Below are positions 11,962-24,950 of a DNA stretch of 30,294 nt, one piece after another; the first letter of the stretch is position 1, and each line of letters starts with the position of its first letter. Location of the stretch: the IMG/VR virus record IMGVR_UViG_3300037245_001922, positions 1 through 30,294 of that record; one strand, given 5' to 3'. Origin of the DNA: a virus. Below the pieces are notes generated by a model that saw only the letters and a program-made list of their open reading frames with translations, made no database searches and was not told where the DNA came from. Made by a program: the position numbers and the translations under genes.

Positions 11962-11979
11962 GAATATACAGGTCTATTC
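11962..11979 (-). promoter_or_regulatory. Operator copy 1 (18-bp dyad)
   Basis: Plus-strand sequence GAATATACAGGTCTATTC. Half-sites GAATATAC and GTCTATTC are inverted around a variable 2-bp centre. It lies 2 bp from the TATA box and overlaps the expected transcription start, so a bound dimer should block initiation. The same site occurs at 17620-17637 and 24931-24948. Confidence 0.75.
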
Positions 11980-11981
11980 CC

Positions 11982-11990
11982 TTTATAAAA
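11982..11990 (-). promoter_or_regulatory. TATA box of operator-1 operon
   Basis: Minus strand TTTTATAAA. The centre is about 25 nt from the inner end of the operator, which predicts a 12-nt leader holding the AGGAG ribosome binding site of the gene starting at 11949. It overlaps the end of the terminase gene. Confidence 0.65.
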
Positions 11991-11994
11991 CTTC

Positions 11995-13491
11995 CTATTC
12001 AACCAATATCCTGTCTCCGACCATTCTGACCTCTTTTCCATTGACCACCTTGGTATTGATTTCGGATTCTCCATAAACTTTGAACTTCTCGGGCTCACTA
12101 ATTGAACCGCCTTGGGCCGGGAATGCCCATGCTCCTTCGTTTGGATTAATCTCAAAATACATCCGCATCATAAGAACGTCACCTGCGTCTGTTGATCTAC
12201 TAAGTGCTGCGGTGTCATGCAGTTCCTTCTTGGTTATAACTCTAGCTTTTCCATCTTTGTCTGCGTCCATTTGTTTCATGACCTCTAAATCCTCTGTTAA
12301 TAATTCCTTGATCTTGATTGGTAGTTTTCTGTAGATTCCTATCATTCCATTATTAACATGATTTGCTAGTTCGAACCAACATTGGCTTCTTAGGTTCTTG
12401 TAATTGTCTAAGCCCTCCTCATCTGTACTCTTTTTCTTCTTTGTCAATGGTGCTGCGTTTGCTACAAACGATACGATTTCTGGCATATCTTTCTTTAGGC
12501 CAAATCCCACACCAATCGAATCTACTAAACATTGACTTCTTGGTATTTGTCTTGATGTCAAAACTTCATCAAGTCCAACCTCATCATCTACTCCCGGCTT
12601 ATCTTTTATTCCGAATGCTGATATCCCATTTGGAAATTGTAAAAACTCGGTGATAAACAAACCATCCCAAATCGACACCATACAACTATCCCTTCCGAAT
12701 CCGGACTGATCAACTATGCAATACTTCTTTCCACGCCTGGCCTCGTTTGTGTATAAATCAATAATCTTATCATATTCGAATATCTTTGTCGGGTCGTCAT
12801 CGTACTCCCAATTTCCGTTCAACAATCTCTCACGGTTCTTCTGGTCTAGCTTTTTCAAGTTATCAATATAATGCACTGAGATGAATGGGTTGTCATAAAC
12901 ACTTGCCGGCACATACGCCTTAAACGGTTCAAGCTCATCATCTCTCCATCTCTTATAAAAATCCCTATAAATAAAAGTCTTGCAAGGATTGCTCCCCATA
13001 CCTATCTTTGGGATTAATCCGAACTCATCCAATTTGAACCTCATACGACTTCTTATGATTTGGTAAGCCTGCTCGCCTATGTCACCCATCTCATCAATTG
13101 CTCCGTCCGTGTACTCAGTAGAACCTAAACTAACAAAGTCTGGATCACTTGGATAAAAAAACAAATCCTTAAGATACTCCTCACTTCCATTACTAAAAGT
13201 GATCACTGCTGATTGGGCATTGTATTTATAATCTACGCCCATCTTTAGGCCGAGTTTGCCACACACTTCAAAAAATGTCAAAAGTGTTGAGGCCTTCAAA
13301 TCCTTAAGACGCGCCCTGGCCAAAAATCCCCTAGAACCTTTGTATTGTAATCTTCGTTTTATCTGCCATAAACAAAGCGTGAACGATTTGGCTCCACCTG
13401 CAGCTCCACCTAAAAATACTTCGGTATGCTCATCATCATCAAGCGCAATAAGCATCTCATTTTGCTTTGGGCTGATTGTTAAGTTTCTCAA
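11995..13491 (-). CDS. terL: Terminase large subunit
   Basis: A 498-residue packaging motor. Residues 28-36 form a Walker A-type loop, GGAAGGAKS, with Ala instead of the usual Gly before Lys35. Walker B is GAIDEMGD (Asp133, Glu134). The RNase H-like nuclease has Asp261 (CIVDQSGFG), Asp324 (CLVDSIGVG) and a third acidic group near 435-438 (STDAGD). This set defines TerL, which cleaves and translocates DNA into the prohead. The start is uncertain. A TTG at 13491 keeps the conserved N-terminal SPKQNEML motif and overlaps terS by 35 nt. The first ATG, at 13455, follows the terS stop but would remove that motif. Confidence 0.93.
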   Translation of the reverse strand: MRNLTISPKQNEMLIALDDDEHTEVFLGGAAGGAKSFTLCLWQIKRRLQYKGSRGFLARARLKDLKASTLLTFFEVCGKLGLKMGVDYKYNAQSAVITFSNGSEEYLKDLFFYPSDPDFVSLGSTEYTDGAIDEMGDIGEQAYQIIRSRMRFKLDEFGLIPKIGMGSNPCKTFIYRDFYKRWRDDELEPFKAYVPASVYDNPFISVHYIDNLKKLDQKNRERLLNGNWEYDDDPTKIFEYDKIIDLYTNEARRGKKYCIVDQSGFGRDSCMVSIWDGLFITEFLQFPNGISAFGIKDKPGVDDEVGLDEVLTSRQIPRSQCLVDSIGVGFGLKKDMPEIVSFVANAAPLTKKKKSTDEEGLDNYKNLRSQCWFELANHVNNGMIGIYRKLPIKIKELLTEDLEVMKQMDADKDGKARVITKKELHDTAALSRSTDAGDVLMMRMYFEINPNEGAWAFPAQGGSISEPEKFKVYGESEINTKVVNGKEVRMVGDRILVE

Positions 13492-13921
13492 GTTTGATTT
13501 CCTCCACAGGCTTCACTATTAAATTGAAAATATTATCCTGATTATTATGAACATTTAGATTTTCAGCAATCTTATCCTTAAATCCATAATTCTCCATAAG
13601 CTTAGTCAAAGTCTCTGCTGTTTGATTCGATGCCTGAATAGCCTTTATTTGCTCTGCAGAGGTCCCCTTTGACTTTAATCCCTCAGTTATAGACATATTC
13701 TTCATAACACTCATAATCAACTTACGGCCCTCTATATCCATTCTCTTAAGATCAATCTTATTAATCCAAAACTGGATATCATTATAAATTACTTTAATCG
13801 TAACTCCATGCTTCTCTGCAAGTATTTTCTTTGGAACACTGTATGGACCCAATGTCTCCATGAAATCCTTTACCTCCTCACGCCTCTCAGCAGTTTCTGC
13901 TGGTGTTTTAGTTCTTACCAT
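13457..13921 (-). CDS. terS: Terminase small subunit
   Basis: A 154-residue protein directly upstream of terL. An N-terminal helix-turn-helix (about residues 25-55, with VPKKILAEKHGVTIKVIYND) is followed by a long helical region (about 60-115) suited to ring oligomerisation and a C-terminal tail ending KLEKLNNQPKAK. TerS recognises the packaging site and stimulates TerL. I chose ATG 13921; an upstream in-frame TTG at 13942 is possible but adds only seven residues. The call rests on the position next to terL plus the HTH. Confidence 0.8.
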   Translation of the reverse strand: MVRTKTPAETAERREEVKDFMETLGPYSVPKKILAEKHGVTIKVIYNDIQFWINKIDLKRMDIEGRKLIMSVMKNMSITEGLKSKGTSAEQIKAIQASNQTAETLTKLMENYGFKDKIAENLNVHNNQDNIFNLIVKPVEEIKLEKLNNQPKAK

Positions 13922-13942
13922 TTTGTAATAGATTGTAATCAA

Positions 13943-14557
13943 TTATGTTCCTAGTATGTCAAATATCATGCCACCTGTCGGAATCAATACAACCTCCTTG
14001 AGTGATAGTTCTGTTTCCTGTAATTCAGTCAATAATTTCTGCGCCTGCTCATCAGTCAACTTAAAGCTAATAAAATGAGTTCTTTTCGTGTTTTTCTTCT
14101 CATCAATAATCATTGACAAGTAACTCTCTGGCACTTGATTCACTGATTCAAGAAAGTCTGTAAGTTGTTTTTCCTCTTGTCCCAAATACTCTGATAACTT
14201 ATTGACACCGTATTCCTTTGATAATTTGATAAGGTCATAGGCGTCCTCTACTGGATTATGTGACCCTTTTATCTTATTCATGGTCTGTCTCAACAATCTC
14301 CTCTCAGAATCTGTTACATCTAGCCTATAGCACTGAATCTTCTCCATTCCAACTTCTTTTGCTGCAAGGAATCTATGCTCACCATCAATCATCAGATTAT
14401 CCTGGTTAATTAGAATTGGTTGCAACATTCCCTTCTCTTGGATCATTTTCTTTAAAGCATCCATCTTTCTTGCATCCATCTTATTAGGATTAGATTCATC
14501 TAGCCGTATCTCAGAAATATCTACATCTTCAACACTATACGTTTTTATGTTTTTCAT
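13943..14557 (-). CDS. ParB/sulfiredoxin-fold nuclease-like protein
   Basis: A 204-residue protein with an N-terminal ParB-like domain: ISEIRLDESNPNKM, MLQPILINQDNLMIDGEH and HRFLAAKEVGM, with the D-G-E-H-R core of ParB box II. A helical segment with HNPVEDAYDLIKLSKEYG and a C-terminal domain of unknown fold follow. Such proteins commonly lie beside terminase and methyltransferase genes in viruses, where they may act as DNA-modification partners, nucleases or packaging cofactors; CTP-dependent clamps are also possible. It overlaps the methyltransferase gene by 23 nt, so the two are expressed together. No ParA is present here. Confidence 0.8.
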   Translation of the reverse strand: MKNIKTYSVEDVDISEIRLDESNPNKMDARKMDALKKMIQEKGMLQPILINQDNLMIDGEHRFLAAKEVGMEKIQCYRLDVTDSERRLLRQTMNKIKGSHNPVEDAYDLIKLSKEYGVNKLSEYLGQEEKQLTDFLESVNQVPESYLSMIIDEKKNTKRTHFISFKLTDEQAQKLLTELQETELSLKEVVLIPTGGMIFDILGT

Positions 14558-15476
14558 TAAAGCCCTCCATTATACTTCTTCCAATTGCTTCAGCCATTTG
14601 TACCGGCACTGCATTCCCGATCTGCATATACATTTGTCTCATGGATCCACAGAACTTGAAATCATCTGAAAATGTTTGAATCCTAGCACACTCTCTCACA
14701 GATACTATCCTGTTATACTCCGGATGAATATATCTCCCAGACTTTGTGATTGTACATGAGAATCCATTCGATTTCAATTTCTTATTAGTAGATTTGAACA
14801 ATCCATAGTTCGATCCTTCCTTTATGTGTGAGAATCTATAATTTTGTAACTTCTTTGGCTTTTCATAAATGTGCTGCAAATCTTCAATCTCCTCATAAGG
14901 TAAATCTAGAATCTCTTTCAAGAACTTCTTTTTCTGGAACACTGGATACTTATTCTCTGCTCCAATTCTATTTCCAATAAATATTGCTCTTTGCCTTGTT
15001 TGTGGAACATTATAATTACTAGAATTCAACACCTTGGCCTCAACTTCATATCCTTCATTCTTGAACATTTGCATGATCTCTTTGAAAACACTTTCTCCTT
15101 CCGGGTTTTTCATTGATCCTATCCCTTGTACATTCTCCATCACAAAGAACTTTGGTTTTATTATACTAATGAATCTCAAATAATCTATAAATAATCTGTT
15201 TCTGTTATCATTCACGTCTCTCTTTCCTGCCATTGAAAATCCCTGACATGGCGGGCCACCAACAACAACATCAATAGTCCCTGCATACTGTTTGATATCT
15301 TTCTCCTGGATCTGTGTTATATCCTTTCCTATCAGAACTCCTTCACAATTATTCAAATGTGTATCAATCGCCGGTTGCCAAAATTCTACAAATCCCACAC
15401 ACTTGAAACCAGCATTCTCTAATCCTTTACTCATCCCTCCGCATCCAGCAAACAAATCTATAAACGTTTTTTGCAT
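14535..15476 (-). CDS. C5-cytosine DNA methyltransferase
   Basis: A 313-residue protein with the full motif order of 5-methylcytosine methyltransferases: motif I FAGCGGMS (9-16, SAM binding), motif IV GGPPCQGFS with catalytic Cys77, motif VI ENV (114-116), motif VIII QTRQR (159-163), a target recognition region (about 185-255) and motif X GNAVP near the C-terminus. It transfers a methyl group from SAM to cytosine C5. No cognate restriction endonuclease is adjacent, so it is most likely an orphan enzyme shielding viral DNA from host restriction or marking packaging DNA. The neighbouring Tad2-like gene strengthens an anti-defence reading. Target sequence cannot be read from here. Confidence 0.95.
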   Translation of the reverse strand: MQKTFIDLFAGCGGMSKGLENAGFKCVGFVEFWQPAIDTHLNNCEGVLIGKDITQIQEKDIKQYAGTIDVVVGGPPCQGFSMAGKRDVNDNRNRLFIDYLRFISIIKPKFFVMENVQGIGSMKNPEGESVFKEIMQMFKNEGYEVEAKVLNSSNYNVPQTRQRAIFIGNRIGAENKYPVFQKKKFLKEILDLPYEEIEDLQHIYEKPKKLQNYRFSHIKEGSNYGLFKSTNKKLKSNGFSCTITKSGRYIHPEYNRIVSVRECARIQTFSDDFKFCGSMRQMYMQIGNAVPVQMAEAIGRSIMEGFNEKHKNV

Positions 15477-15877
15477 TGTAATTCCCTGGCACGTTTAATT
15501 GCCTTCTCTAAATCATTAAGTTCACTCGGATGAATTACTTTCAATCCATTACTATTATAAATCTCATTAGTTCCAGCTATCAATTGAAATGATCCAAACC
15601 TGTTTTCTTCATAAATCTCCCAGTCTGTTGTCACAACAAAATCTAAAAGTGCTACAAAATGCTGAGAGTCTTCTCTTTTATTGGTATTCCAATGTTTTGA
15701 AGATAAAAAGATTTGATCAGTACCGCGACTCGTTCCTGGCGATTTGTTTTCTATATAAAGATATGATTTGCAACTAGTAAATCTCCACTTTTTCCTCATA
15801 ACCTTCTTTCCTTGCTTCATTTGCTCTACAGCCCACATGAATGATCCTTCTATATAAGAACATCCTTCTTCAACCAT
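15458..15877 (-). CDS. Tad2-like (DUF2829-type) domain protein, possible anti-Thoeris
   Basis: A 139-residue protein. I start it at ATG 15877, which overlaps the upstream stop as TAATG; a longer in-frame start at 15928 would overlap that gene by 52 nt. Residues about 12-90 carry the family landmarks: SFMWAVEQMKQGKKVMRKKW, then SYLYIENK, then DFVVTTDWEIYEEN. This matches the GKxVxRxxW and TDWE pattern of DUF2829/Tad2 proteins, known in phages as sponges that sequester the Thoeris signal 1''-3' gcADPR. The C-terminal about 50 residues (IHPSELNDLEKAIKRARE) are extra. Whether it binds a nucleotide is untested; many family members have no proven role. Confidence 0.65.
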   Translation of the reverse strand: MVEEGCSYIEGSFMWAVEQMKQGKKVMRKKWRFTSCKSYLYIENKSPGTSRGTDQIFLSSKHWNTNKREDSQHFVALLDFVVTTDWEIYEENRFGSFQLIAGTNEIYNSNGLKVIHPSELNDLEKAIKRARELQCKKRL

Positions 15878-16080
15878 TAATAGTAAATCTCCATTTTTAG
15901 ACAATTCTTGCAAGTTACTCTTTTCCACCGCTTAGTCATGTTTTTTTTCTTTGGAGTTACCATGTGATTGCATAAATGTGAACCATTATGATTATAGTGT
16001 ACTTTCTTTTGACTATATTCTAAACTAGGCGCTGATAAGAAAAGTATCTTAAAAATTTCTATTATTTTCTTAATTATCAT
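15877..16080 (-). CDS. Small zinc-binding protein
   Basis: A 67-residue protein with a hydrophobic N-terminus (MIIKKIIEIFKILFLSAPSL) and then VHYNHNGSHLCNHM and WKRVTCKNCLKMEIYY. The H, C and C-x-x-C ligands with the VTCKNCLK ending match small viral zinc proteins widely found in tailed viruses, of unknown function. The ATG lies 11 nt inside the preceding gene. The N-terminal hydrophobic helix is unusual for that family and could be an alternative start effect or a membrane anchor. Confidence 0.65.
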   Translation of the reverse strand: MIIKKIIEIFKILFLSAPSLEYSQKKVHYNHNGSHLCNHMVTPKKKNMTKRWKRVTCKNCLKMEIYY

Positions 16081-16309
16081 CTAAATCCTCCGAATCTACC
16101 GGATCACATTTAAATTTGTAGCGATAGCCCTCAATTCCGCCCAGACCTTTATTGTATGGTTTCCAAAGCACTTCACTCCTTAATCTTAATTTTCTTAATA
16201 ATCTATTAGCAGCTTTTCTGTTACACCCCATCCTATCAGCTATTTCTTGGGAGTCCATCCACTGCTTCTTGTCTTCCCTTAGTGCATTAATCACCTCTGT
16301 CTCTCCCAT
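16070..16309 (-). CDS. Winged-helix DNA-binding protein
   Basis: A 79-residue protein with a clear helix-turn-helix: QWMDSQEIADRMGCNRKAAN, then RLLRKLRLRSEV, followed by a wing-like beta segment (EGYRYKFKCDP) and an acidic tail. The start is ATG 16309; an in-frame TTG three bases earlier is less likely. A 16-codon frame directly upstream ends TGATG on this start and could act as a leader peptide. Probably a transcription regulator. As first gene of the run toward the methyltransferase and terminase genes, it could control them. Confidence 0.75.
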   Translation of the reverse strand: MGETEVINALREDKKQWMDSQEIADRMGCNRKAANRLLRKLRLRSEVLWKPYNKGLGGIEGYRYKFKCDPVDSEDLDDN

Positions 16310-16390
16310 CAATTCGCATCCTCTCCTATTTCGTTTGTTATTTCTTTGTCTAATTTCATTGTTTTATCACCATGTTTTTTTGGGTTCTCC

Positions 16391-16425
16391 TAAAAAATAA
16401 AGAAGAAAAAAATAAAAATTGTTTT
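16391..16425 (-). terminator. Oligo-T terminator, bipartite type
   Basis: Minus strand AAAACA, AT-rich link, then T-tracts interrupted by single A/C bases, 10 nt after the stop of the gene at 16430-16891. Same layout as the tracts after the capsid and ParB-like genes, but less regular. Confidence 0.55.
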
Positions 16426-16429
16426 GAAA

Positions 16430-16891
16430 TTAAAGCTTTAATCGTGTTCCGATTTCGTCCTTAATATCTTTGAGTTCCTTGTTAACTATTTTGAGTCTCT
16501 CTTCAACTGCAACGATTTCATTTTTGGATTTCTCCGCCTTGTCTATCTTAGCAATTTTCTGCAAATCGTCTTTAAGCTTTTGTAATTCTGGAGTCATTTC
16601 TCCGGCCTCTTTTAGTCCATTCCTCAAATCAACAAGATGCTTATCGTGATATTGTTTCTCCTGGTTTAATCCTTTGTATGCAATTTTTATTCCTTCTGTA
16701 GAATATTCAACTTCCATGATAGACTTAACTGTTGAGACAAGCTTAGATTTCTCTGTGACTTCATTGCCTTCCGATGAAGTTTTTATTTCATCAGTTCTGT
16801 TCTCCGTAACATTAGACTTCTTCTGTAATAGGACTTTCCTCCTATCATCATAAGTTAACTTAGATGTATTTTCAAGTTCTTTCTGTACCAT
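16430..16891 (-). CDS. Coiled-coil protein of unknown function
   Basis: A 153-residue, Lys/Glu-rich protein with long predicted coiled coils (about residues 75-150, with MTPELQKLKDDLQKIAKIDK and VEERLKIVNKELKDIKDEIG). The N-terminal third (TYDDRRKVLLQKKSNVTENR) is polar and probably flexible. It overlaps the upstream MarR-like gene by 20 nt and is the last gene of the operator-2 operon, ending at an oligo-T terminator. Not recognised. It may be a binding partner of the upstream regulator or an oligomeric scaffold. Confidence 0.7.
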   Translation of the reverse strand: MVQKELENTSKLTYDDRRKVLLQKKSNVTENRTDEIKTSSEGNEVTEKSKLVSTVKSIMEVEYSTEGIKIAYKGLNQEKQYHDKHLVDLRNGLKEAGEMTPELQKLKDDLQKIAKIDKAEKSKNEIVAVEERLKIVNKELKDIKDEIGTRLKL

Positions 16892-17210
16892 TTTTTCCTC
16901 CCTTCTCAGTAATTATATTATTAATCGTGCTTTTGAGGTCTTCCTTGTTTTTATTATAATTCTTTTTTAGTTCCCTTAATAATTTCACTTGCTTTGCTCC
17001 ATACTCAGTTAATGTGATTATGATCTCTCGGCCCCTTTCTCCATCGGCTTTTGTTTTGCATATAACGTTCTCTCTTGCTAATCTCGATATTAATGTTGAC
17101 GCAAAGCTCAATGTTAAATCTCCAAGTTTCGCTAGCTCGGATATGTTCCTGGGCCTGCTTGCAATCAGAAATAAAAAGTTCATGTTCTTCTGGTTAATCA
17201 TCTCTAACAT
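16872..17210 (-). CDS. MarR/ArsR-type winged-helix regulator
   Basis: A 112-residue protein. Residues 1-75 give the winged-helix order: MNFLFLIASRPRNISELAKL, DLTLSFASTLISRLARENVI (recognition helix) and the wing KTKADGERGREIIITLTEYG. It ends in a long basic helix (VKLLRELKKNYNKNKEDLKS). This matches MarR-like dimeric repressors of archaea. It sits in the operon behind operator 2, so it is a candidate for the protein that binds the dyad operators and represses its own synthesis, although the winged-helix protein at 17425-17619 is another. Its ATG overlaps the upstream stop by 7 nt. Confidence 0.8.
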   Translation of the reverse strand: MLEMINQKNMNFLFLIASRPRNISELAKLGDLTLSFASTLISRLARENVICKTKADGERGREIIITLTEYGAKQVKLLRELKKNYNKNKEDLKSTINNIITEKGGKNGTERT

Positions 17211-17425
17211 AATACACCCTCAATTTTACATGTCGATTTTGGATGAGTTGTTCTTGGTATTAAATCCATTAAACAAACACTCTCTAGTCTCTTCGGTTCA
17301 AACTTCTTTATCCTGAGTAAGTCCATAATCTTCTGAATAAGTGTTGGATTTGTATATGTTATTCCATTAGCTGCATCTACTATTTTTGGATCAATATATA
17401 TCTTCATCCCCAAAAAATCTACCAT
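17204..17425 (-). CDS. Unknown 73-residue protein, paralogue of 10464-10685 product
   Basis: Shows MKIYIDPKIVDAANGIT near the N-terminus and LMDLIPRTTHPKSTCKIEG near the C-terminus, matching the product at 10464-10685 in length and order of landmarks while the middle differs (LIQKIMDLLRIKKFEPKRLE). The duplicated pair lies in two operons with the same operator, so both copies are probably made at the same stage. Its start overlaps the upstream stop. No known domain is recognised. Confidence 0.75.
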   Translation of the reverse strand: MVDFLGMKIYIDPKIVDAANGITYTNPTLIQKIMDLLRIKKFEPKRLESVCLMDLIPRTTHPKSTCKIEGVLC

Positions 17426-17619
17426 TATTTGAGTTTGACTCTCCTGTCTTTATTGATTCGGACATTGAGCATTGTTAGTGCTAATTTTACAGAATTGCAA
17501 TCCACACATACGCCCTTTACGATGTCTGATATGAATACTGGTTTCTCTTGTTCTTTTAGAAATTTTCGGACCTTTTCGAGAGTAGAAACATTTATATTTT
17601 TTCTCTCTGTCTTCACCAT
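17425..17619 (-). CDS. Winged-helix-like regulator, leaderless mRNA
   Basis: A 64-residue basic protein with the helix-turn-helix pattern LEKVRKFLKEQEKPVFISDI, VKGVCVDCNSVKLALTML, and a short basic wing (VRINKDRRVKLK). The ATG at 17619 directly touches operator 2 and lies about 25 nt from the centre of the TATA box, so the mRNA is expected to be leaderless. Being first behind the operator makes it a strong candidate for the autoregulated repressor or anti-repressor of the regulon. The specific binding site cannot be proven from sequence. Confidence 0.75.
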   Translation of the reverse strand: MVKTERKNINVSTLEKVRKFLKEQEKPVFISDIVKGVCVDCNSVKLALTMLNVRINKDRRVKLK

Positions 17620-17637
17620 GAATATACGTGTCTATTC
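17620..17637 (-). promoter_or_regulatory. Operator copy 2 (18-bp dyad)
   Basis: Plus-strand sequence GAATATACGTGTCTATTC, the same half-sites as copies 1 and 3 with central GT. It fills the space between TATA box and start codon, so binding would prevent initiation. It lies 3 bp from the TATA box. Confidence 0.75.
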
Positions 17638-17640
17638 TTC

Positions 17641-17650
17641 TTTATAAATA
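17641..17650 (-). promoter_or_regulatory. TATA box of operator-2 operon
   Basis: Minus strand TATTTATAAA. The centre lies about 25 nt from the A of the ATG at 17619, the canonical archaeal distance, predicting leaderless transcription. Confidence 0.7.
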
Positions 17651-17679
17651 TATGCTTTTATCAAAAGACTAGGACTCGT

Positions 17680-18370: not shown

Positions 18371-18372
18371 GA

Positions 18373-18676: not shown

Positions 18677-18749
18677 AGCATCCGGCCGGATTCGAACCGA
18701 CGGCCTCCTGATTACAAGTCAGGCGCTCTTCCAACTGAGCTACGGAAGC
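18677..18749 (-). tRNA. trnT: tRNA-Thr (anticodon UGU)
   Basis: A full cloverleaf of 73 nt: acceptor GCTTCCG/CGGATGC with one U-U mismatch at pair 3-70, D-arm GCTC/GAGC, anticodon stem CCTGA/TCAGG with loop CTTGTAA (anticodon TGT), a 5-nt variable loop, and T-arm GTCGG/CCGGC with TTCGAAT. The discriminator is T and no CCA is encoded. A viral tRNA for ACA/ACN codons would help the Thr-rich structural proteins. The mismatch may mark early decay or be tolerated. Confidence 0.85.
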
Positions 18750-18771
18750 ATATCCAACATAAAGATAAGAA

Positions 18772-18782
18772 TATTTATAAAT
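18772..18782 (-). promoter_or_regulatory. TATA box for tRNA-Thr
   Basis: Minus strand ATTTATAAATA, centred about 27 nt upstream of the tRNA 5' end. It overlaps the stop codon of the SWIM-HNH gene. Confidence 0.65.
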
Positions 18783-19327
18783 CATTTCTTTGCTCCTGGT
18801 GTTCCATGCCATTTTTGATATGTGACCAACTTATGATGCTCCTCACATAATAGAATACAATTATCTTTGTTATACTTTCCACCATTTGTTCTTGGAACCT
18901 TTCTATGGACTTCGACTCCATGATTGGTGCAAACCCCATCCCAAACAGGAAACTCACACATTCCTCCGGATCTCTTCATAATAATTTTCCTTAACTCTGC
19001 AGTGCATTTGTCAGTTCCTTCCATTGTCTTTGGCCGTTTTAGTTTTCCACCCTGCATCTCCATTACCTTAATGTCTGGCAATAAATGTTTGCATGGTTCT
19101 GCGTAGAACTTCTTATCAGAAAACTCTCCACTATTTTTTAATCGTTCCCCTGGGAACCAACTTGCTTCTCTTATTACTTTTCCTTTGACAACTTCTTTTG
19201 GCCGATACACTCCACTGAAATCTCCGCACGTACAGTCAATAAAATAAATCTCTTTGGTTTCCTTGATGTACTTTATAATCTGCTCATAACCACCACGATC
19301 CAATATCTTTGTTATTTTTGTTTCCAT
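18782..19327 (-). CDS. HNH endonuclease with N-terminal SWIM-like zinc finger
   Basis: A 181-residue protein. The C-terminal HNH unit (about 115-168) has Cys124 and Cys133 (GMCEFP, DGVCTNHG), His141 in VEVHRKVPRTNGG, then DNCILLCEEHHKLV, giving the His-Asn-His set and a zinc-binding CxxH pair. The N-terminal half holds C-x-C (Cys32, Cys34 in DCTCGDFSG) and C-x-H (Cys79, His81 in EPCKHLL), which match the SWIM finger CxC...CxH that binds DNA or protein. HNH enzymes cut DNA in homing, restriction or packaging roles. It neighbours tRNA-Thr and is not near terL, so a mobile or processing role is open. Confidence 0.8.
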   Translation of the reverse strand: METKITKILDRGGYEQIIKYIKETKEIYFIDCTCGDFSGVYRPKEVVKGKVIREASWFPGERLKNSGEFSDKKFYAEPCKHLLPDIKVMEMQGGKLKRPKTMEGTDKCTAELRKIIMKRSGGMCEFPVWDGVCTNHGVEVHRKVPRTNGGKYNKDNCILLCEEHHKLVTYQKWHGTPGAKK

Positions 19328-19533
19328 TTATAATCATCCAATTTAAATTTTTCTTTTTTCTCAAATATTCTTAATTTTGCAAATTCGAATTCAAGAAAGA
19401 TGTACTTAAAAATTAAGTCTGATGGTACTATATCACCATTACTTATTTCATAAATAGTAAATGCATTTTTTACATGCTCTCCATAAAATCTTTTATCAAA
19501 AACATTAATTGTAAAACAAGATAATTTCATCAT
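19312..19533 (-). CDS. Unknown 73-residue protein
   Basis: A hydrophobic/basic small protein (MMKLSCFTINVFDKRFYGEH, then IVPSDLIFKYIFLEFEFAKL, then a Lys-rich end). ATGA coupling with the preceding gene and a 16-nt overlap with the SWIM-HNH gene indicate one operon. Not recognised. Confidence 0.6.
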   Translation of the reverse strand: MMKLSCFTINVFDKRFYGEHVKNAFTIYEISNGDIVPSDLIFKYIFLEFEFAKLRIFEKKEKFKLDDYKWKQK

Positions 19534-19868
19534 AATAAACCCTCCGAGTCAATTCCAATATTATCAGTATCGACTTCTTTTGGTTCGATTACTTGCTCTC
19601 TTTCATCTGTTTCTTTCTCATCCAGGAGTTTGTCAATCAGAATCCCTGCCTCTTGCTTTGTCATGTTGATAGGAGCAATTCCACCAAGTGCTACGATATA
19701 TTTCTTTTGTCCTGGGGATGCCATTCCAAATTTGTTTTGAGGTTTTTGTTTTGCCGGTTCATAGAATCCCTCTTTGTTTGGGATAGAGATTCTTGATATC
19801 TTATCTTCTAAAACTTCGATTCTTCTTAATGCGCTTGCAAGTGCTTCTTCGTATATTTTGTTATCCAT
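19530..19868 (-). CDS. Protein with C-terminal Q-K-Y-I...LGG motif domain
   Basis: A 112-residue protein. An N-terminal coiled coil (EEALASALRRIEVLEDKISR) is joined by a Pro/Gln linker to a compact helical module with MASPGQKKYIVALGG and INMTKQEAGILIDKLLDE. This module (Q-x-x-Y-I-x-x-L-G-G, T-x-x-E-A-x-x-x-I) recurs in many viral and plasmid DNA-metabolism proteins, often as a C-terminal accessory of recombination or single-strand DNA-binding proteins. The acidic tail supports this. A role with the annealing protein is inferred only. Confidence 0.7.
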   Translation of the reverse strand: MDNKIYEEALASALRRIEVLEDKISRISIPNKEGFYEPAKQKPQNKFGMASPGQKKYIVALGGIAPINMTKQEAGILIDKLLDEKETDEREQVIEPKEVDTDNIGIDSEGLL

Positions 19869-20011
19869 TATTTTTTCATCTCCCTGATTATTTCTTCAAC
19901 TAAAAAATTTACAAAACATTTCATATTTTCTTTGAATTGGTTGGCTGTATTAGGATATTTCTCAGCAAATCTTTCTCTCACTTTTGATTTTATATCCTCT
20001 TTATCCATCAT
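19868..20011 (-). CDS. Unknown 47-residue helical protein
   Basis: Begins MMDKEDIKSKVRERFAEKYP and continues NTANQFKENMKCFVNFLVEE to a basic end. Mostly amphipathic helix. GAGGTGG lies 5 nt before a tandem ATG-ATG, and the stop overlaps the next start as TAATG. Too short for a function call. Confidence 0.6.
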   Translation of the reverse strand: MMDKEDIKSKVRERFAEKYPNTANQFKENMKCFVNFLVEEIIREMKK

Positions 20012-20068
20012 GTAACCACCTCATCAACAAAATATGATCTGCATTCGTTGCAATATATCTCACTTTAG

Positions 20069-20236
20069 TCATTTTAATAATCCCTTTTTTTTTAGTTCCT
20101 TCCATCTCTCTGAATCCTTCATTACTTCTCCTATGCCCCTCAAATGTGGCGGATAGTTGGCAACACACTTTTTACACTTTGTTCCCTGATCTCTCCAAGA
20201 ACAATGTCTCTCGCAATATATTAATTCTTCACTCAT
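20069..20236 (-). CDS. Small zinc-ribbon-like protein
   Basis: A 55-residue protein with IYCERHCSWRDQGTKCKKCV: Cys8, Cys12, Cys21 and Cys24 plus His11 could hold one zinc. The rest is MKDSERWKELKKKGLLK, a basic helix. The ATG overlaps the stop of the preceding gene (ATGA). Function unknown. Confidence 0.65.
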   Translation of the reverse strand: MSEELIYCERHCSWRDQGTKCKKCVANYPPHLRGIGEVMKDSERWKELKKKGLLK

Positions 20237-20526
20237 ATTAATCCATCTCCTGCAAATTTATATAATCTTTCAATAGCTCGTCTCGGGTGAATATGTGGCT
20301 CACAATTAGCTTTTTTACAAAATTCCCAATCATCCTTAAAACCTTCTTCCAACTGCTTAATAAACCCTCTAACATCGTTTGCCAATTTTGCTGTTAACTT
20401 ATGAAGTGCATACCATTCCTTTGAGTCTTTATCGAATCCATAACTGTCAGACAATTCTACAAATGTAGAGTTCATCTTCTTAGTCAAATTCATCAGTTCC
20501 TTCTCTTTTTCTGTTTTGTTTACCAT
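20233..20526 (-). CDS. Unknown 97-residue helical protein after RNA cluster
   Basis: Starts MVNKTEKEKELMNLTKKMNS, continues as charged helices (AKLANDVRGFIKQLEEGFKD) and ends with CKKANCEPHIHPRRAIERLY, where Cys and His could form a metal site. The ATG is inside the 17-nt box that also starts the gene at 18597. It lies directly after the U-run of the GC-rich structured RNA. Not recognised. Confidence 0.7.
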   Translation of the reverse strand: MVNKTEKEKELMNLTKKMNSTFVELSDSYGFDKDSKEWYALHKLTAKLANDVRGFIKQLEEGFKDDWEFCKKANCEPHIHPRRAIERLYKFAGDGLI

Positions 20527-20539
20527 TGTGATTATAAAA
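20523..20539 (-). repeat. 17-nt box shared with 18594-18610
   Basis: Second exact copy of TTTTATAATCACAATGG, again between a terminator-like hairpin and an ATG. Confidence 0.8.
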
Positions 20540-20681
20540 CCCAGGATGTTTCGCGCACCCTGGGCGTGGGGTCTTTGCCTCCTGTCATCTCTTTGCGAAC
20601 AGGGCTGTCTAGAACACCTTACCTCGCAGGCTTGACGCCTTCTGGTCTGGATGGTCTTTAGTCCGTTTACTCCATTCCATA
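20540..20681 (-). ncRNA. GC-rich structured RNA of unknown type
   Basis: There is no protein gene here. GC content is clearly above the rest of the window, and the minus strand has several hairpins: GGAATGG/CCATCC enclosing AGT/ACT, AGGC/GCCT around GTCAA, CCTGT/ACAGG, and a final CCCAGG/CCTGGG (20540-20564) followed by TTTT. It follows the tRNA-like element at 20682-20748 and is probably co-transcribed. It does not show the conserved core of RNase P RNA, SRP RNA or box C/D sRNA that I could recognise by eye. A viral regulatory or decoy RNA is possible. Confidence 0.5.
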
Positions 20682-20748
20682 TGGGAGAGGCAGGATTCGA
20701 ACCTAATCTAGCCGCTAAGCCATTGCAACCCACATTACACTCTCTCCC
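20682..20748 (-). tRNA. tRNA-like element with reduced anticodon arm
   Basis: A full 7-bp acceptor GGGAGAG/CTCTCCC, a D-arm TGTA/TGCA with an 8-nt loop holding GGG, and a T-arm with TTCGAAT and 4 pairs (one mismatch). Only 17 nt remain for anticodon arm and variable loop, about five too few. The best fold is a 4-bp stem TGGC/GCTA with a 6-nt loop TTAGCG, so no anticodon can be assigned. Total 67 nt, discriminator A, no CCA. It may be a decayed tRNA gene or a tRNA mimic. Confidence 0.5.
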
Positions 20749-20824
20749 TAAGTACCAGTTTTTAAAGATGCTTAGCACTCATCCATCTGTTTGTTTGATT
20801 CCGGATAGCAGTTTTCTCTGCTAA

Positions 20825-20919
20825 TGGCGGAGGGTGGATTCGCACCACCGAAGGAATATCTCATCATGTTTGATACTCCGCGAGTGTTTCGCCCCATTTG
20901 ACTGCTCTGGCACTCCGCC
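20825..20919 (-). tRNA. tRNA-Leu-like element with rearranged anticodon region
   Basis: The 7-bp acceptor GGCGGAG/CTCCGCC is extended by flanking TAAT/ATTA to 11 bp. The D-arm TGCCAGAGCAGTCAAATGG matches archaeal tRNA-Leu, including a compensated A-T pair. T-arm GGTGG/CCACC has a TGCGAAT loop in place of TTCGAAT. The centre is unusual: a 13-nt hairpin (GCGA/TCGC), then an 8-bp stem GGAGTATC/GATATTCC with an 11-nt loop. If the first five pairs are the anticodon stem, the loop would read ATCAAAC, anticodon CAA (Leu), with about 10 extra nt. An intron or degeneration could explain this. Confidence 0.5.
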
Positions 20920-20937
20920 ATTATGAGCAAATAGCTC

Positions 20938-20955
20938 AAAAAAAATATGTTTTTA
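20938..20955 (-). terminator. Oligo-T terminator after ParB-like gene
   Basis: Minus strand AAAACATA followed by 9 T, about 12 nt after the stop at 20967, then a GAGC/GCTC hairpin. Same AAAACA-oligo(T) pattern as at the other unit ends. Confidence 0.6.
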
Positions 20956-20966
20956 TGTGATTTTAT

Positions 20967-22448
20967 TTACAACATTATCTGGGGGACTTTTCCTTTTAGA
21001 TTTTGTTGTAGTATGTGTACTATTAGTTCTGCTTTTTTGACATTTCCAGCTTCTTCCAACTTGAATTCCTTGATTAAGTCACTCAATTGATCCTTAGTGT
21101 ACATTTTCAAGTAATCCTCAGTTATCACAAAGTCTGTTTTTATATCAACACCAAAGTTTCTAGAAATTAATACCAGATTCTTCAAGTCTACTCCTCGAAG
21201 TGCATTTTTACTTAACACTGCAATCGTATTGTCTAGCGCCATATCATCTGCTGCAAAGATGTTCTTCACATTCGCATAAGCTCCACATTCGTCCTCCATT
21301 AATTTTCCAATCTCTTCAGCTGCCCTATCCTTTTCTTCGTAATCTGCCTGTTGTATGATTCTTAAAACTCCAAGCTTTTTGGCTTCGATTGTTCCTGGTT
21401 GAACTTTCTCTTTTGTTTGTTCAATCAAAAACTGTGTTTTAAATGCACTAACTTTTGTCAATAATGCAGTTTCCTTCTTCTCAACTTTCTCTTCTGATAC
21501 TTCAACTTCTCCGGCTTCAACCTTTTGTGGCCGCTTTTTGAAGTATTCAGTAAATCTTCCAGAATCATCAACTTTTACTAAGTAATTCTCTCGCTTCTCT
21601 CTACATTTCTTCTTATAAGCATCAGTGATTTTGAATTCTGTGCATTTCCAAGCATGATCTCCATCGATATAACCTTCTGGTGATGTATAGCTTTCTCCTT
21701 CGTATAAAATATCTGCGAACTCTTTTCTTTTGTTATACACAAACTCTCGCAACTTTTTATTAAAGCATTTGCTATTCATACAATTTCCATTCAGTATTGT
21801 TCCTGTTTCAAATAATTCTGCTTGTTTAGATCCATTGTGAATACAATCCTTACAATCTCCTTTACAGAACTTTGCATCTTCCAAGTTCATACTTCTGTAT
21901 GACATGTTATCTTTTGCCTCTTGGACACCAAGTTCATCATCAATAATTTCTTTCATTAATTCATCTCTTGCTTCCCCAGAAATTCTTGCTAATAATAAAG
22001 CGTGACCCATTTGGATCTTATTTTTTACTAATGCTGTCTGGACCTTAACTGGTAACTTAGCAATCTCTAGCCTTTTTTCCACATAGTTTTGTCGCTTTGA
22101 TATTCTCACTGCGAGTTGTTCTATTGTTACGCCTTCAGTCTCAATGTATTGCGCGAATGCTTTTCCTTCTTCAACCGGATTAAGATTCTTCTGAAATATT
22201 CCTGCAATCATTTGTGAAGTCCTTTCGTCGATTCTGTCATTTGCATAGAAAAACGGAACCTCTTTAAGTCCTGCTGCTTTTGCTGCAATAACCCTTCTGT
22301 GTCCGTCAATAATTTCATCTTCAGAGTTCAAGATTATCGGTTGCCTCATACCGTGAGCCCTGACTGATTCAGTTAACTCGGTTAAGTCGCCGTAGTCCTC
22401 TCTGATGTTTTCTTTCTTTTTGATGTTGTCTATTTTTATGTTTTCCAT
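20967..22448 (-). CDS. ParB-like protein with Cys cluster and C-terminal SAP-like segment
   Basis: A 493-residue protein. Residues 1-70 form a ParB N-terminal domain (MRQPIILNSEDEIIDGHRR, then VIAAKAAGLKEVPF). NLNPVEEGKAFAQYI and the HTH GVTIEQLAVRISKRQNYVEK follow, as in ParB/KorB-type DNA binders. At about 192-235 lies a Cys cluster, FCKGDCKDCIHNGS and NGNCMNSKCF, a pattern known in plasmid ParB relatives. The end (YTKDQLSDLIKEFKLEEAG, ELIVHILQ) resembles a SAP helix pair. It has a strong Shine-Dalgarno (AGGAGG). Likely a partition, replication or chromatin-organising factor; no ParA is seen in the window. Confidence 0.85.
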   Translation of the reverse strand: MENIKIDNIKKKENIREDYGDLTELTESVRAHGMRQPIILNSEDEIIDGHRRVIAAKAAGLKEVPFFYANDRIDERTSQMIAGIFQKNLNPVEEGKAFAQYIETEGVTIEQLAVRISKRQNYVEKRLEIAKLPVKVQTALVKNKIQMGHALLLARISGEARDELMKEIIDDELGVQEAKDNMSYRSMNLEDAKFCKGDCKDCIHNGSKQAELFETGTILNGNCMNSKCFNKKLREFVYNKRKEFADILYEGESYTSPEGYIDGDHAWKCTEFKITDAYKKKCREKRENYLVKVDDSGRFTEYFKKRPQKVEAGEVEVSEEKVEKKETALLTKVSAFKTQFLIEQTKEKVQPGTIEAKKLGVLRIIQQADYEEKDRAAEEIGKLMEDECGAYANVKNIFAADDMALDNTIAVLSKNALRGVDLKNLVLISRNFGVDIKTDFVITEDYLKMYTKDQLSDLIKEFKLEEAGNVKKAELIVHILQQNLKGKVPQIML

Positions 22449-22491
22449 ATTTTCCTCCTGGATTTAGTTTGCGTTCCGCGCCCGGTCTTTC

Positions 22492-22520
22492 TAAAATAAA
22501 AAAAAATAAAATTTGTTTTA
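22492..22520 (-). terminator. Oligo-T terminator, bipartite type
   Basis: Minus strand AAAACAAA, then T4-A-T9-A-T4, a few bases after the stop at 22524. It separates the annealing-protein operon from the ParB-like gene, whose leader then carries a GC-rich segment and AGGAGG. Confidence 0.6.
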
Positions 22521-22523
22521 CAG

Positions 22524-22715
22524 TTATACAGCTACTTTTTCTCCGTATCTCTCAGACATTGCTGTTTCAATTTCAGCCAAAGTTACAAGAGCTTTCTGCG
22601 GATCCTGGTCATAAACCTTCACTTCCCAAGTATACCCTTTCGAGTTCCTTGTAACCTTAACACTGCTTTTTTGTTCAACCGTTACGTTTTGTGTGTTTTC
22701 TACTTCTTCTGCCAT
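22524..22715 (-). CDS. Small protein downstream of annealing-like protein
   Basis: A 63-residue protein starting MAEEVENTQNVTVEQKSSVK, then KGYTWEVKVYDQDPQKALVT and a helix ending SERYGEKVAV. The beta-hairpin plus helix layout (SKGYTWEVKVYD) is common in small viral proteins next to recombination genes. The ATG lies one base after the preceding stop; an in-frame upstream start at 22769 would run into that gene and is unlikely. Function unknown. Confidence 0.7.
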   Translation of the reverse strand: MAEEVENTQNVTVEQKSSVKVTRNSKGYTWEVKVYDQDPQKALVTLAEIETAMSERYGEKVAV

Positions 22716-22716
22716 C

Positions 22717-23442
22717 TTATGTTGTTTTTGGATCAACGACCTCTTCTGGTACTTTTGTAACTGGCACATTGTCTGGGTCTGTATCTACTCTTGAAGGAGT
22801 TGTTGCTGCATCTTCAATTGTTCCACTTGGGAGCTCTTCTTCTGCAACTTCCATATTATTTGTTGCCTGCTTCAATGCTCTAACTTGCGCCCTTGTGCTA
22901 GCCATACGGATCCAAGCATTCCTTATTGTCTTTTGCTCGATGTTTCCGCCTTCTTCTTCTTTAAGTCCACATGCATCTCCAAAATCTACATACGTTTGGT
23001 GTATAATTTCTATTGATCCATTAACTCCAACGTTTTTTCTTATCGTTGCAGTAGCCTTAAAACACGCAGTTTTCATTAAAACATTTGAAAGCTCTGGTAC
23101 AAACTCAACATCCATTGAAACTAATCCGATCTTATGCGCCTGGTCTGTTAATGTTTTGTAGTTGACTTTATCTAATTGGTCTTTGAATGATCCCTTTGCC
23201 GATTGTTCAACCTTATCATTTAGAACCTCAATATCTTTTATTATATTCAGTTCAACACTCAGCTCGACTTCAAAACCTTTCTTCAATCTATTTAAAAGAC
23301 TTTTCAGCTTTTCCTCTGTTTCATGAAAATTATAAAACGCCCCATTGACTTTAATACTCAATTGTAGTTGATCTTGATATTTATTCGGTTTGTCAGCAAT
23401 CCAATCAATCTTTCCTCGTACTTTTTTCATTTCGTTTTCCAT
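22717..23442 (-). CDS. Putative single-strand annealing-type recombination protein (Rad52/ERF-like)
   Basis: A 241-residue protein. The core (about 90-205) has LVSMDVEFVPELSNVLMKTA, CFKATATIRK, QTYVDFGDACGLK and NAWIRMASTRAQVRALKQAT. The last motif (A-x-TRA-x-x-RAL) is the family signature of Rad52/ERF/Sak-type annealing proteins and their relatives in archaeal and bacterial viruses. The N-terminal 90 residues are a strand/helix domain of unknown type, and the C-terminal 40 residues are acidic and Pro-rich, suited to binding partners. Annealing of single strands would support recombination-dependent replication together with the PD-(D/E)XK nuclease. The assignment is by motif only. Confidence 0.6.
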   Translation of the reverse strand: MENEMKKVRGKIDWIADKPNKYQDQLQLSIKVNGAFYNFHETEEKLKSLLNRLKKGFEVELSVELNIIKDIEVLNDKVEQSAKGSFKDQLDKVNYKTLTDQAHKIGLVSMDVEFVPELSNVLMKTACFKATATIRKNVGVNGSIEIIHQTYVDFGDACGLKEEEGGNIEQKTIRNAWIRMASTRAQVRALKQATNNMEVAEEELPSGTIEDAATTPSRVDTDPDNVPVTKVPEEVVDPKTT

Positions 23443-23443
23443 G

Positions 23444-23623
23444 TTAATAGCTAGTTGAAGGAATCGTTTTAGTTTCTATTACCCCATCATCAGATATTTT
23501 TAATCCTGCATCTCGAGCTTCTTCAAGGTAGTTTGCATTGATAGCTAATATTACTAAAACCCCATCTTGTATACTACAAATTTGTTGCTTACCTTCTAAT
23601 ATTTTTATTTTGTTTTCCATCAT
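23444..23623 (-). CDS. Unknown 59-residue protein
   Basis: Starts MMENKIKILEGKQQICSIQD and has GVLVILAINANYLEEARDAG, then KISDDGVIETK. GGAGG lies 5 nt before the tandem ATG, the strongest ribosome binding site of this operon. It ends one base before the annealing-like gene. Not recognised. Confidence 0.65.
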   Translation of the reverse strand: MMENKIKILEGKQQICSIQDGVLVILAINANYLEEARDAGLKISDDGVIETKTIPSTSY

Positions 23624-23750
23624 TTACCTCCTTCTCAGTAATTTTAACATGATTTTTTGATAAGGGGCAGGTAGGAGAACCCGATGAAAGATTCATCCTA
23701 CCCCCGTTTTTATTACTAAAAACTGTTACTTCGTCTTTGGCTTCTTTCAT
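23589..23750 (-). CDS. Unknown 53-residue protein
   Basis: I use ATG 23750, which overlaps the upstream stop (ATGA); an in-frame start at 23786 lies inside the membrane-protein gene. The protein reads MKEAKDEVTVFSNKNGGRMN, then SSGSPTCPLSKNHVKITEKE, and ends basic. It overlaps the next gene by 35 nt. No function can be read. Confidence 0.5.
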   Translation of the reverse strand: MKEAKDEVTVFSNKNGGRMNLSSGSPTCPLSKNHVKITEKEVNDGKQNKNIRR

Positions 23751-24133
23751 TTCATACCCTTCCCGGTCCAGAATCCTATCGCCCATGCTATTAATATTGT
23801 AATTATCGACCTTCCAATCCCTACAATTTTTTCTGAAGTCTCCCTTAAACTATTGTATTCCTCTACCCCATCGTACTCCGAGAAATTGAATTTTGTATAA
23901 GCAATCAAATATCCACTTTGTACACTATCATTTATCTTTAAGTTAGTTGTGACACAGATTTGTTCTGCTCCCTTCATATGTACCGAATGAAAAATTTCTT
24001 CTGCGATAATTGCACTAAAGAATATCCCAATCAGTATAAATCCCAATAGTGTTACCATGAATAATTTTTTGATTACCATTTTGTAACTAACCCTGCTACA
24101 CATATTCAGTATTTTATTTTTTATTTCTTCCAT
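23747..24133 (-). CDS. Two-TM membrane protein
   Basis: A 128-residue protein with two predicted transmembrane helices: about 24-44 (LFMVTLLGFILIGIFFSAII) and about 106-122 (IITILIAWAIGFWTGKG). Between them lies a 60-residue loop with CVTTNLKINDSVQSG and two N-x-S/T sites, probably outside the cell. A poly-G ribosome site (GGGGGG) precedes the ATG. Membrane proteins in early viral operons often act in superinfection exclusion or host-envelope change; this is only a suggestion. Confidence 0.7.
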   Translation of the reverse strand: MEEIKNKILNMCSRVSYKMVIKKLFMVTLLGFILIGIFFSAIIAEEIFHSVHMKGAEQICVTTNLKINDSVQSGYLIAYTKFNFSEYDGVEEYNSLRETSEKIVGIGRSIITILIAWAIGFWTGKGMK

Positions 24134-24154
24134 TGTTCCCCCCTTTTTGCTTTT

Positions 24155-24286
24155 TCATTCTAATACACTCCTAAGTGCTTTTATACAAAATTCTAATCCC
24201 AACCATTCCAAAGAGTCATTACTAAAAGCTTGTTGGTCTATTTCCAAATCTCTTATATTATCTCTTATTTGTTCTTCTGTTTTCAT
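24155..24286 (-). CDS. Unknown 43-residue acidic protein
   Basis: Starts MKTEEQIRDNIRDLEIDQQA and ends WLGLEFCIKALRSVLE; amphipathic helices throughout. ATGA overlap with the upstream gene. Short, but phase, coupling and composition all support a real gene. Confidence 0.6.
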   Translation of the reverse strand: MKTEEQIRDNIRDLEIDQQAFSNDSLEWLGLEFCIKALRSVLE

Positions 24287-24468
24287 AAAGACTCCAAAAT
24301 CTTTTTAATTGGAGTTTTGTTATGTTTTCTATTATCTTGAACCTCTACTTCAACTTTTCCTTTACCTTCACAGCAAAAACAATCATCTATCACCATTTTG
24401 CCACCAACAAAATTAGTTTTCTGAATTCCTTCTCCTCCACAATACCTACACTCTATTTTCATTTTCAT
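24283..24468 (-). CDS. DnaJ-type zinc-finger mini-protein
   Basis: A 61-residue protein with two C-x-x-C-x-G-x-G units, IECRYCGGEGIQK and DDCFCCEGKGKVEV, the repeat of DnaJ zinc-binding domains, and a basic tail (NRKHNKTPIKKILESL). One zinc is expected. ATGA coupling on both sides. Such single-finger proteins may bind unfolded protein or RNA; function unknown. Confidence 0.7.
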   Translation of the reverse strand: MKMKIECRYCGGEGIQKTNFVGGKMVIDDCFCCEGKGKVEVEVQDNRKHNKTPIKKILESL

Positions 24469-24608
24469 AATTTACTGACCTCCACTTTGTATCCCTCTTT
24501 TGTTTTTGCTTCGGCCCACTCTTTTGCTTCCTTCTCGCTTTGGAATCCGAATTGTCCAGGACAAAAGTTCCCAGTTACTTGATGAGTCGGATGCATATAT
24601 TTTTCCAT
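24465..24608 (-). CDS. Unknown 47-residue protein
   Basis: I start at ATG 24608, which overlaps the upstream stop as TAATG. It reads MEKYMHPTHQVTGNFCPGQF, then SEKEAKEWAEAKTKEGYKVE. The helix-strand end resembles small SPOR-like or YegP-like folds, but it is too short to call. Confidence 0.55.
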   Translation of the reverse strand: MEKYMHPTHQVTGNFCPGQFGFQSEKEAKEWAEAKTKEGYKVEVSKL

Positions 24609-24763
24609 TATGAACAAACCTCCATATATCCGCCACATAATATACAAACATTTGGTAAAGATTCGGGGAAACCTACAAAATTATCGTTCACTCTTGAAGT
24701 AATATTAGCATCATCAAAAATTGGATTTGCCCCACATTTAGTGCATTTTACTTCCCATTTCAT
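24608..24763 (-). CDS. Zinc-ribbon protein, 51 residues
   Basis: ATG 24763 overlaps the upstream stop (ATGA). It contains MKWEVKCTKCGANPIFDD and SLPNVCILCGGYMEVCS: two C-x-x-C-G knuckles 33 residues apart, a classic zinc ribbon. Function unknown; zinc ribbons of this size often join host complexes. Confidence 0.65.
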   Translation of the reverse strand: MKWEVKCTKCGANPIFDDANITSRVNDNFVGFPESLPNVCILCGGYMEVCS

Positions 24764-24918
24764 CTCTCGAATTTCTCCACATTTAATTCCCATGATATTC
24801 TATATCCATCTTCATTGTCTAAAATTCCAGAGGTGTTACCTTCTTTGATTAATCTTGCGATCTCCTCGTTGTCGGTCTCAAGATTTCTTTCGATTGATTG
24901 TTTAATATTTTGTTTCAT
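24760..24918 (-). CDS. Unknown 52-residue protein, first gene of operator-3 operon
   Basis: Starts MKQNIKQSIERNLETDNEEI, then ARLIKEGNTSGILDNEDGYR and ISWELNVEKFER. AGGAGA lies 7 nt before the ATG, and the leader from operator to ATG is the same as in copy 1 (TTCTAGGAGAAAACGATGAA). It is directly controlled by operator 3. Not recognised. Confidence 0.65.
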   Translation of the reverse strand: MKQNIKQSIERNLETDNEEIARLIKEGNTSGILDNEDGYRISWELNVEKFER

Positions 24919-24930
24919 CGTTTTCTCCTA

Positions 24931-24948
24931 GAATATACACGTCTATTC
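24931..24948 (-). promoter_or_regulatory. Operator copy 3 (18-bp dyad)
   Basis: Plus-strand sequence GAATATACACGTCTATTC, half-sites as in copies 1 and 2, central AC. It lies 2 bp from the TATA box at 24951-24959 and overlaps the expected start site. Confidence 0.75.
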
Positions 24949-24950
24949 CC

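Follow-up and report, generated by a model that had tools for sequence, protein, structure and literature searches.

The window analysed here is the linear IMG/VR record IMGVR_UViG_3300037245_001922, a stretch of 30,294 bp that encodes a terminase, a portal and major head proteins typical of tailed viruses and has nearly all of its predicted genes on the minus strand. The host is probably a DPANN archaeon of the Nanoarchaeota, a group of tiny symbionts, because the terminase and major-capsid matches fall in that group: the nearest cellular terminase is that of a Nanoarchaeota metagenome-assembled genome (52% identity), and relatives of the major capsid protein at 59-60% identity occur in 2 of 371 Nanoarchaeota genomes. 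Three operons of small genes in this virus are preceded by one and the same 18-bp dyad, which we consider a likely viral operator.

A TATA-associated dyad at three promoters

The window contains the dyad GAATATACNNGTCTATTC exactly three times, at 11962, 17620 and 24931, as the original prediction had it. The chance expectation is 0.00, none of 100 dinucleotide-preserving shuffles contains a match, and a scan of the whole window allowing up to three mismatches yields no further place. The prediction was also right that all 16 arm bases are invariant across the three sites while the central two vary (AG, GT and AC on the plus strand). The arms form an imperfect palindrome, symmetric at seven of the eight positions. 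The promoter features are as follows; the E values were obtained with a promoter model built from related viruses only, described below.

11962 to 11979, minus strand: dyad 1, GAATAGACCTGTATATTC, in the promoter of the operon behind the terminase gene (E 7.9e-9)
11982 to 11989, minus strand: TATA box TTTATAAA of promoter 1
17620 to 17637, minus strand: dyad 2, GAATAGACACGTATATTC, adjoining the ATG of a winged helix-turn-helix (wHTH) gene, in a predicted leaderless promoter (E 1.1e-6)
17641 to 17648, minus strand: TATA box TTTATAAA of promoter 2
24931 to 24948, minus strand: dyad 3, GAATAGACGTGTATATTC, in the promoter of an early-type operon (E 8.6e-10)
24952 to 24959, minus strand: TATA box TTTTAAAA of promoter 3
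11945 to 12001, minus strand: 57-bp promoter repeat, copy 1, with TATA box, dyad, Shine-Dalgarno leader TAGGAGAAAACG and ATG
24914 to 24970, minus strand: 57-bp promoter repeat, copy 2, with 93% identity to copy 1
10065 to 10072, minus strand: TATA box of the portal-gene promoter, without a dyad, for contrast

On the minus (coding) strand the dyad reads GAATAGACNNGTATATTC, and the layout is the same at each site: a TATA-like box, a gap of 2-3 bp, the dyad, and then either the ATG at once or a short leader. Counted from the centre of the TATA box, the dyad extends from base 7-8 to base 24-25. The ATG of site 2 lies 26 bp from the TATA centre, which is the usual archaeal start distance, so that a leaderless transcript is expected there; at sites 1 and 3 this distance is 37-38 bp, and the dyad is followed by the TAGGAGAAAACG leader with its Shine-Dalgarno sequence. 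The dyad occupies the interval between TATA box and start and ends just short of the predicted start. The spacing of 2-3 bp to the TATA box had been foreseen correctly; the dyad had also been expected to overlap the start of transcription, which it abuts instead. An RNA element was considered and set aside: Rfam matches only a tRNA, and the predicted transcript would begin downstream of the dyad.

Sites 1 and 3 fall within a single repeat (family D9) that includes the TATA box and the Shine-Dalgarno leader, whereas site 2 has only the TATA box and the dyad in common with them. Sites 1 and 3 are therefore copies of one promoter cassette, and the window holds only two independent instances of the dyad. 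This duplication lends some weight to a different explanation, in which recombination has copied a virus-specific core promoter or initiator sequence, made up of extended TATA, melting region and start, to several places in the genome, with an incidental symmetry and no dedicated reader protein. In its favour, a segment comprising the terminase tail and the promoter is repeated in two related viruses (L028 and L034) and the right arm GTATATTT is steadier than the left; A/T-rich melting regions, moreover, can look partly symmetric by chance. However, the arms are constant where centre and flanks vary, both in the window and in the related virus L230, and they shift jointly (both A or both T at position 3, both C at position 6). 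The same virus also has working TATA promoters that lack the dyad, namely those of the portal gene and at 26,053, and the presence of the dyad follows that of the wHTH gene. We therefore regard a copied core promoter without a reader as rather unlikely.

Conservation and arm symmetry in related viruses

Viruses with related terminases were fetched from IMG/VR; these and the other related viral loci are labelled L or G with a number. The promoter model was built from 17 of their promoters, on sequence only, with no window sequence included. It assigns the three dyad sites of the window E values of 8.6e-10, 7.9e-9 and 1.1e-6, while the next-best place (E 0.05) is the TATA part of another promoter. 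It recovers the expected sites in the related loci, the 17 training sites matching by construction; in bacterial loci that carry related terminases, 639 kb in all, no match falls below E 0.07. Conservation of the half-sites in related contigs, on which the original prediction had staked its operator, is thus borne out. By comparison, a scan of IMG/VR with the exact motif gave 11 matches, 10 of which are chance matches without a TATA box and only one of which (L008) is a relative; for this reason it was rejected as sole evidence.

Relatives without a gene block behind the terminase gene pass directly to a long-leader portal promoter. In those that have such a block (L008, L022, L024, L026, L028 and L034), as in the window, a TATA box and dyad stand right behind the terminase stop. 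Other dyad places are found in G013, L022, G042 and G041 (two each), G026 (three), L211, L218 (two) and, in weaker form, G036, and G024/L230 carries the module twice in addition to its wHTH promoter. The dyad module is present in more than 10 related viruses at both homologous and novel operons, which supports the earlier claim that one operator joins the three operons of the window into a viral regulon. A TATA/BRE core (BRE, TFB-recognition element), AATAGAAAG-TTTTAAAAAGG, lies upstream of small accessory genes in most relatives, and the portal promoters of the relatives have no dyad.

The two arms also vary together. In 29 distinct sites, 179 symmetric matches were observed, as against 164.7 after the left and right arms had been permuted among sites (indicative permutation P 0.00025). 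Position 3 is A/A in 15 sites, T/T in 8 and asymmetric in 6, and the two sites of L218 both have C/C at position 6. L230 provides an example of the constancy within one virus: the 18 bp GATTATACTGGTATAATT are identical at two accessory promoters despite different flanks, and its wHTH gene is preceded by GATTATACTGCTATAATT, one base off this sequence. Dyads of the same genome are alike more generally (indicative P 0.028).

Candidate regulators and proposed mechanism

The second dyad adjoins the first gene of operon 2, whose gene order is wHTH, 73-aa protein, MarR-like protein and 153-aa protein:

17425 to 17619, minus strand: winged-helix protein of 64 aa, first gene of operon 2, candidate binder (AlphaFold wHTH fold, pLDDT 80)
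17204 to 17425, minus strand: protein of 73 aa, encoded between the two candidate regulators and paralogous to 10464-10685 (E 1e-10)
16872 to 17210, minus strand: MarR/Lrs14-like protein of 112 aa, candidate binder (profile match to solved MarR proteins, E 5.8e-7)
16430 to 16891, minus strand: conserved 153-aa protein, last gene of operon 2
16391 to 16420, minus strand: poly-T terminator-like run closing operon 2

The wHTH is modelled as a winged helix of the canonical three-helix kind, with Foldseek matches to IclR, DtxR and Z-alpha at an E of about 0.05. The MarR-like protein is modelled with a MarR wing and a long C-terminal helix (residues 69-103), without an N-terminal helix; it matches solved MarR and Lrs14 proteins by profile and by Foldseek (E 2.4e-5), and Pfam MarR_2 only below the cut-off. 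Fold and profile matches thus confirm the two classes that had been assigned to these operon 2 proteins. The paralogy between operons that had been noticed is likewise real, 17204-17425 and 10464-10685 being 36% identical (E 1e-10). The idea that the 73-aa protein is a domain that split off from the Tad2-like protein found in G013 was rejected (E 0.007 over 11 residues).

Of all regulator candidates, only the adjacent wHTH and MarR-like genes occur in every one of the six larger dyad-bearing relatives. Profile scans of the collection recovered 18 viral loci for the wHTH and, with the A4 alignment in place of the too diverse A3 alignment, 15 for the MarR-like protein, and the wHTH gene directly precedes the MarR gene in three of the four new MarR-like loci. 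In L230 and loci like it, the wHTH stop overlaps the MarR start; a Tad2-like gene, with sub-threshold Pfam scores, lies between the two in G042, G036 and L231. Neither protein has a match among 50,697 phage records, and the Nanoarchaeota genomes yield only weak partial matches to the wHTH. The wHTH genes' own promoters are recognised by the promoter model (R1) at E <= 0.005 in G042, L230, G036/G018, G013, L208, L231 and L228, the sites of G042, L230 and G013 belonging to its training set. The more distant G034 (L121/L122) has a distant MarR-like protein, no wHTH gene and its own repeated promoter gaaacTTTTAAAAAGGATAAAAACANAG, which lacks the dyad; another regulator-operator pair may occupy this position there.

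We place the wHTH somewhat ahead of the MarR-like protein as candidate binder, because its gene lies directly on the operator and its presence tracks the dyad more closely. MarR/Lrs14 dimers bind short palindromes and often autoregulate, and a palindrome of 18 bp, with one turn between its half-sites, would accommodate a MarR-type dimer as well as two wHTH units. Choosing between the two by Mantel correlation was abandoned as non-discriminating. Residue 45 of the wHTH is K with GAATAGAC, G with AAATATAC and mostly N with GATTATAC, a post hoc pattern with exceptions in G041, L231 and L218 that was not used as proof of the binder.

A different protein might instead read the dyad: the ParB-like protein at 20967-22448, in a KorB/parS-like use, the ribbon-helix-helix-like protein at 25316-25621, the HTH protein at 16070-16312, or a host factor. 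The protein at 20967-22448 carries ParB_N and HTH_ParB domains, and proteins of the ParB type can regulate promoters and bind palindromes of similar size. However, ParB homologues are undetected in G042, G018 and G036, all of which have the wHTH and dyad-like promoters (in G018, a variant of the wHTH promoter only), and a ParB homologue is present in the dyad-less G034. The ribbon-helix-helix-like protein has no homologue in the relatives and the HTH protein one partial match, while a host factor would not differ from virus to virus. The three viral proteins were set aside because their phylogenetic distribution does not fit, and we consider any such binder very improbable. The small protein at 25316-25621 (minus strand) was classed as ribbon-helix-helix-like by eye and has no Pfam or PHROG match.

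Based on the above data, we propose, with a probability of roughly 0.7, that the dyad is a viral operator read by the winged-helix regulator or regulators of operon 2, which would repress transcription by hindering polymerase docking. The 18 bp would act in cis within a viral promoter module, between the TATA box and the transcription start. The 64-aa wHTH, the translationally linked MarR-like protein, or both, would bind either in dimeric form or through two subunits spaced by one helical turn, and the bound regulator would prevent host RNA polymerase from docking beside TATA-binding protein (TBP) and transcription factor B (TFB). Repression is the expected effect since the dyad covers the landing place of the polymerase after TBP and TFB, and an operator downstream of the TATA box fits steric repression in archaea. 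The regulator would repress its own operon, the early operon behind site 3 and the accessory operon behind site 1, and would leave free the portal and other structural genes, whose promoters have no dyad. The likely use would be a burst of early and accessory, possibly anti-defence, genes upon entry, which the accumulating regulator then shuts down. The exact threefold occurrence of the dyad, its conservation and co-variation, its association with the gene pair and the dyad-less portal promoters count in favour of an operator, as do the poly-T runs that bound operons 2 and 3.

The same site could also be genuine but serve to switch the three operons on at one stage, its protein being either a plain activator or one that alternates between activation and repression. 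Archaeal activators bind mostly upstream of BRE/TATA, and a protein between TATA box and start would hinder the polymerase, both of which count against this alternative. In its favour, a constitutive strength of these promoters is without independent support, and some archaeal viral factors, AvtR among them, both stimulate and repress (review PMC5569661). On balance, an activating role appears distinctly unlikely.

Several observations weigh against the repressor-operator proposal. In G026, G041, L218 and L219 no dyad can be recognised in the promoter of the wHTH gene itself, so that autoregulation is not universal; the wHTH is without an evident dimerisation element; and in a Mantel test of recognition-helix against operator distances both correlations are weak and the wHTH is not separated from the MarR-like protein. 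Relatedness is not accounted for in the co-variation tests, and the motif itself served to collect many of the sites, so that the P values are indicative only. Arm position 6 is asymmetric (G/T) in many sites, and part of the within-genome likeness could have arisen, as at sites 1 and 3, from duplicated promoters or from gene conversion.

If the operator proposal holds, the dyad looks like a master on/off switch for early and accessory viral genes. It is possible, if doubtful, that the wHTH and its translationally coupled MarR-like partner form a two-component switch that runs the early/accessory regulon of a large, uncultured group of tailed Nanoarchaeota viruses, with the module as a portable cassette that brings new accessory, largely anti-defence, genes under its control; if true, searching for the dyad would itself point to anti-defence genes of DPANN viruses. 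These viruses have no cultured model, and the motif together with the wHTH/MarR pair may be used as bait to list their early genes and candidate anti-defence genes. At 64 and 112 aa, the candidate regulators are small enough for direct in vitro work.

Comparison with known systems and neighbouring genes

By analogy, the regulon resembles the known Aca8-type control of early and anti-defence genes, although the regulators are non-homologous and the viruses tailed. Bhoobalan-Chitty et al. 2024 (PMC11065993) described regulatory sequences common to the early small genes of Sulfolobales viruses, with the wHTH protein Aca8 as the likely repressor. As in those rudiviruses and their relatives, one TATA-associated sequence precedes many small, poorly conserved viral genes, is found as well before a small wHTH gene whose product is the presumed means of switching them off, and takes a virus-specific version in each genome. 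In contrast to them, the present viruses are of the tailed HK97 type with probable DPANN hosts, the sequence precedes operons rather than single genes, and a second, MarR-like protein is linked. The wHTH was rejected as a homologue of Aca8 (BLASTP E 2.4, hhalign probability 0.3%). The shared sequence of SMV2 contains inverted repeats overlapping the BRE that are thought to bind a repressor (PMC11065993), whereas our dyad lies between TATA box and start. In the literature searched, regulons of this sort, with a shared early promoter/operator and an Aca-like regulator, are described for Sulfolobales viruses and related contigs, not for DPANN viruses.

Bacterial Aca repressors of acr-aca operons, such as Aca2 and Aca10 (PMC8434428, PMC9410881), are likewise small HTH regulators encoded within the operon under their presumed control, with an inverted-repeat operator in the promoter; here the promoter is archaeal and no known anti-CRISPR gene was identified. 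The window does encode a Tad2-like (anti-Thoeris) domain above the cut-off at 15458-15928, minus strand (PF11195, E 5.5e-6), in a gene that lies past the terminator-like run of operon 2. The gene-specific archaeal viral repressors SvtR, AvtR and F55, as well as the GTC element downstream of the TATA box in SIRV1/2 promoters, are reviewed in PMC5569661. Our system shares with the former a virus-encoded DNA-binding factor (a candidate here), few viral promoters and imperfect inverted-repeat targets, and with the latter a virus-specific element downstream of TATA. However, SvtR, AvtR and F55 are ribbon-helix-helix proteins, whereas the candidates here are winged-helix and MarR-like, with one compact 18-bp dyad per promoter. 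The MarR-like protein is similar by profile and fold to solved MarR/Lrs14 structures such as ST1710 and AbfR2, but differs in being viral, in its linkage to a second wHTH and in lacking the N-terminal dimerisation helix, so that dimerisation is predicted on the long C-terminal helix.

The two other dyad-preceded operons and the end of the third are:

10117 to 11949, minus strand: operon 1, seven tiny open reading frames (ORFs) in the terminase-to-portal interval
22524 to 24918, minus strand: operon 3, about eight tiny accessory ORFs followed by the conserved genes 22717-23442 and 22524-22769
22492 to 22514, minus strand: poly-T terminator-like run closing operon 3

None of the seven operon 1 ORFs has a Pfam family and one has a weak (30%) match in the relatives, where homologues are missing for most operon 1 genes and for the tiny ones of operon 3. 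Minus-strand poly-T runs occur at four places only (3435-3460, 5181-5207, 16391-16420 and 22492-22514), solely at operon ends, and resemble archaeal terminators.

The terminase frames of L024, L028, L031, L032, L034 and L049 seem to hold long in-frame insertions, possibly inteins; in L028, query residues 1-441 are spread over 2241 bp and the frame is open to 5078. The window further encodes a cytosine-C5 DNA methyltransferase (14535-15476, minus strand) with no evident restriction partner in the window, where it is the sole PADLOC match, and a tRNA-Thr(UGU) (18677-18749, minus strand) whose best matches in the Nanoarchaeota phylum are 79-86% identical. An array of 66-nt tandem repeats lies at the left end (201-591), and repeats of 147-150 nt (28460-29106) lie inside the large gene 27759-30035, which likely encodes a repeat-built tail or adhesin protein.

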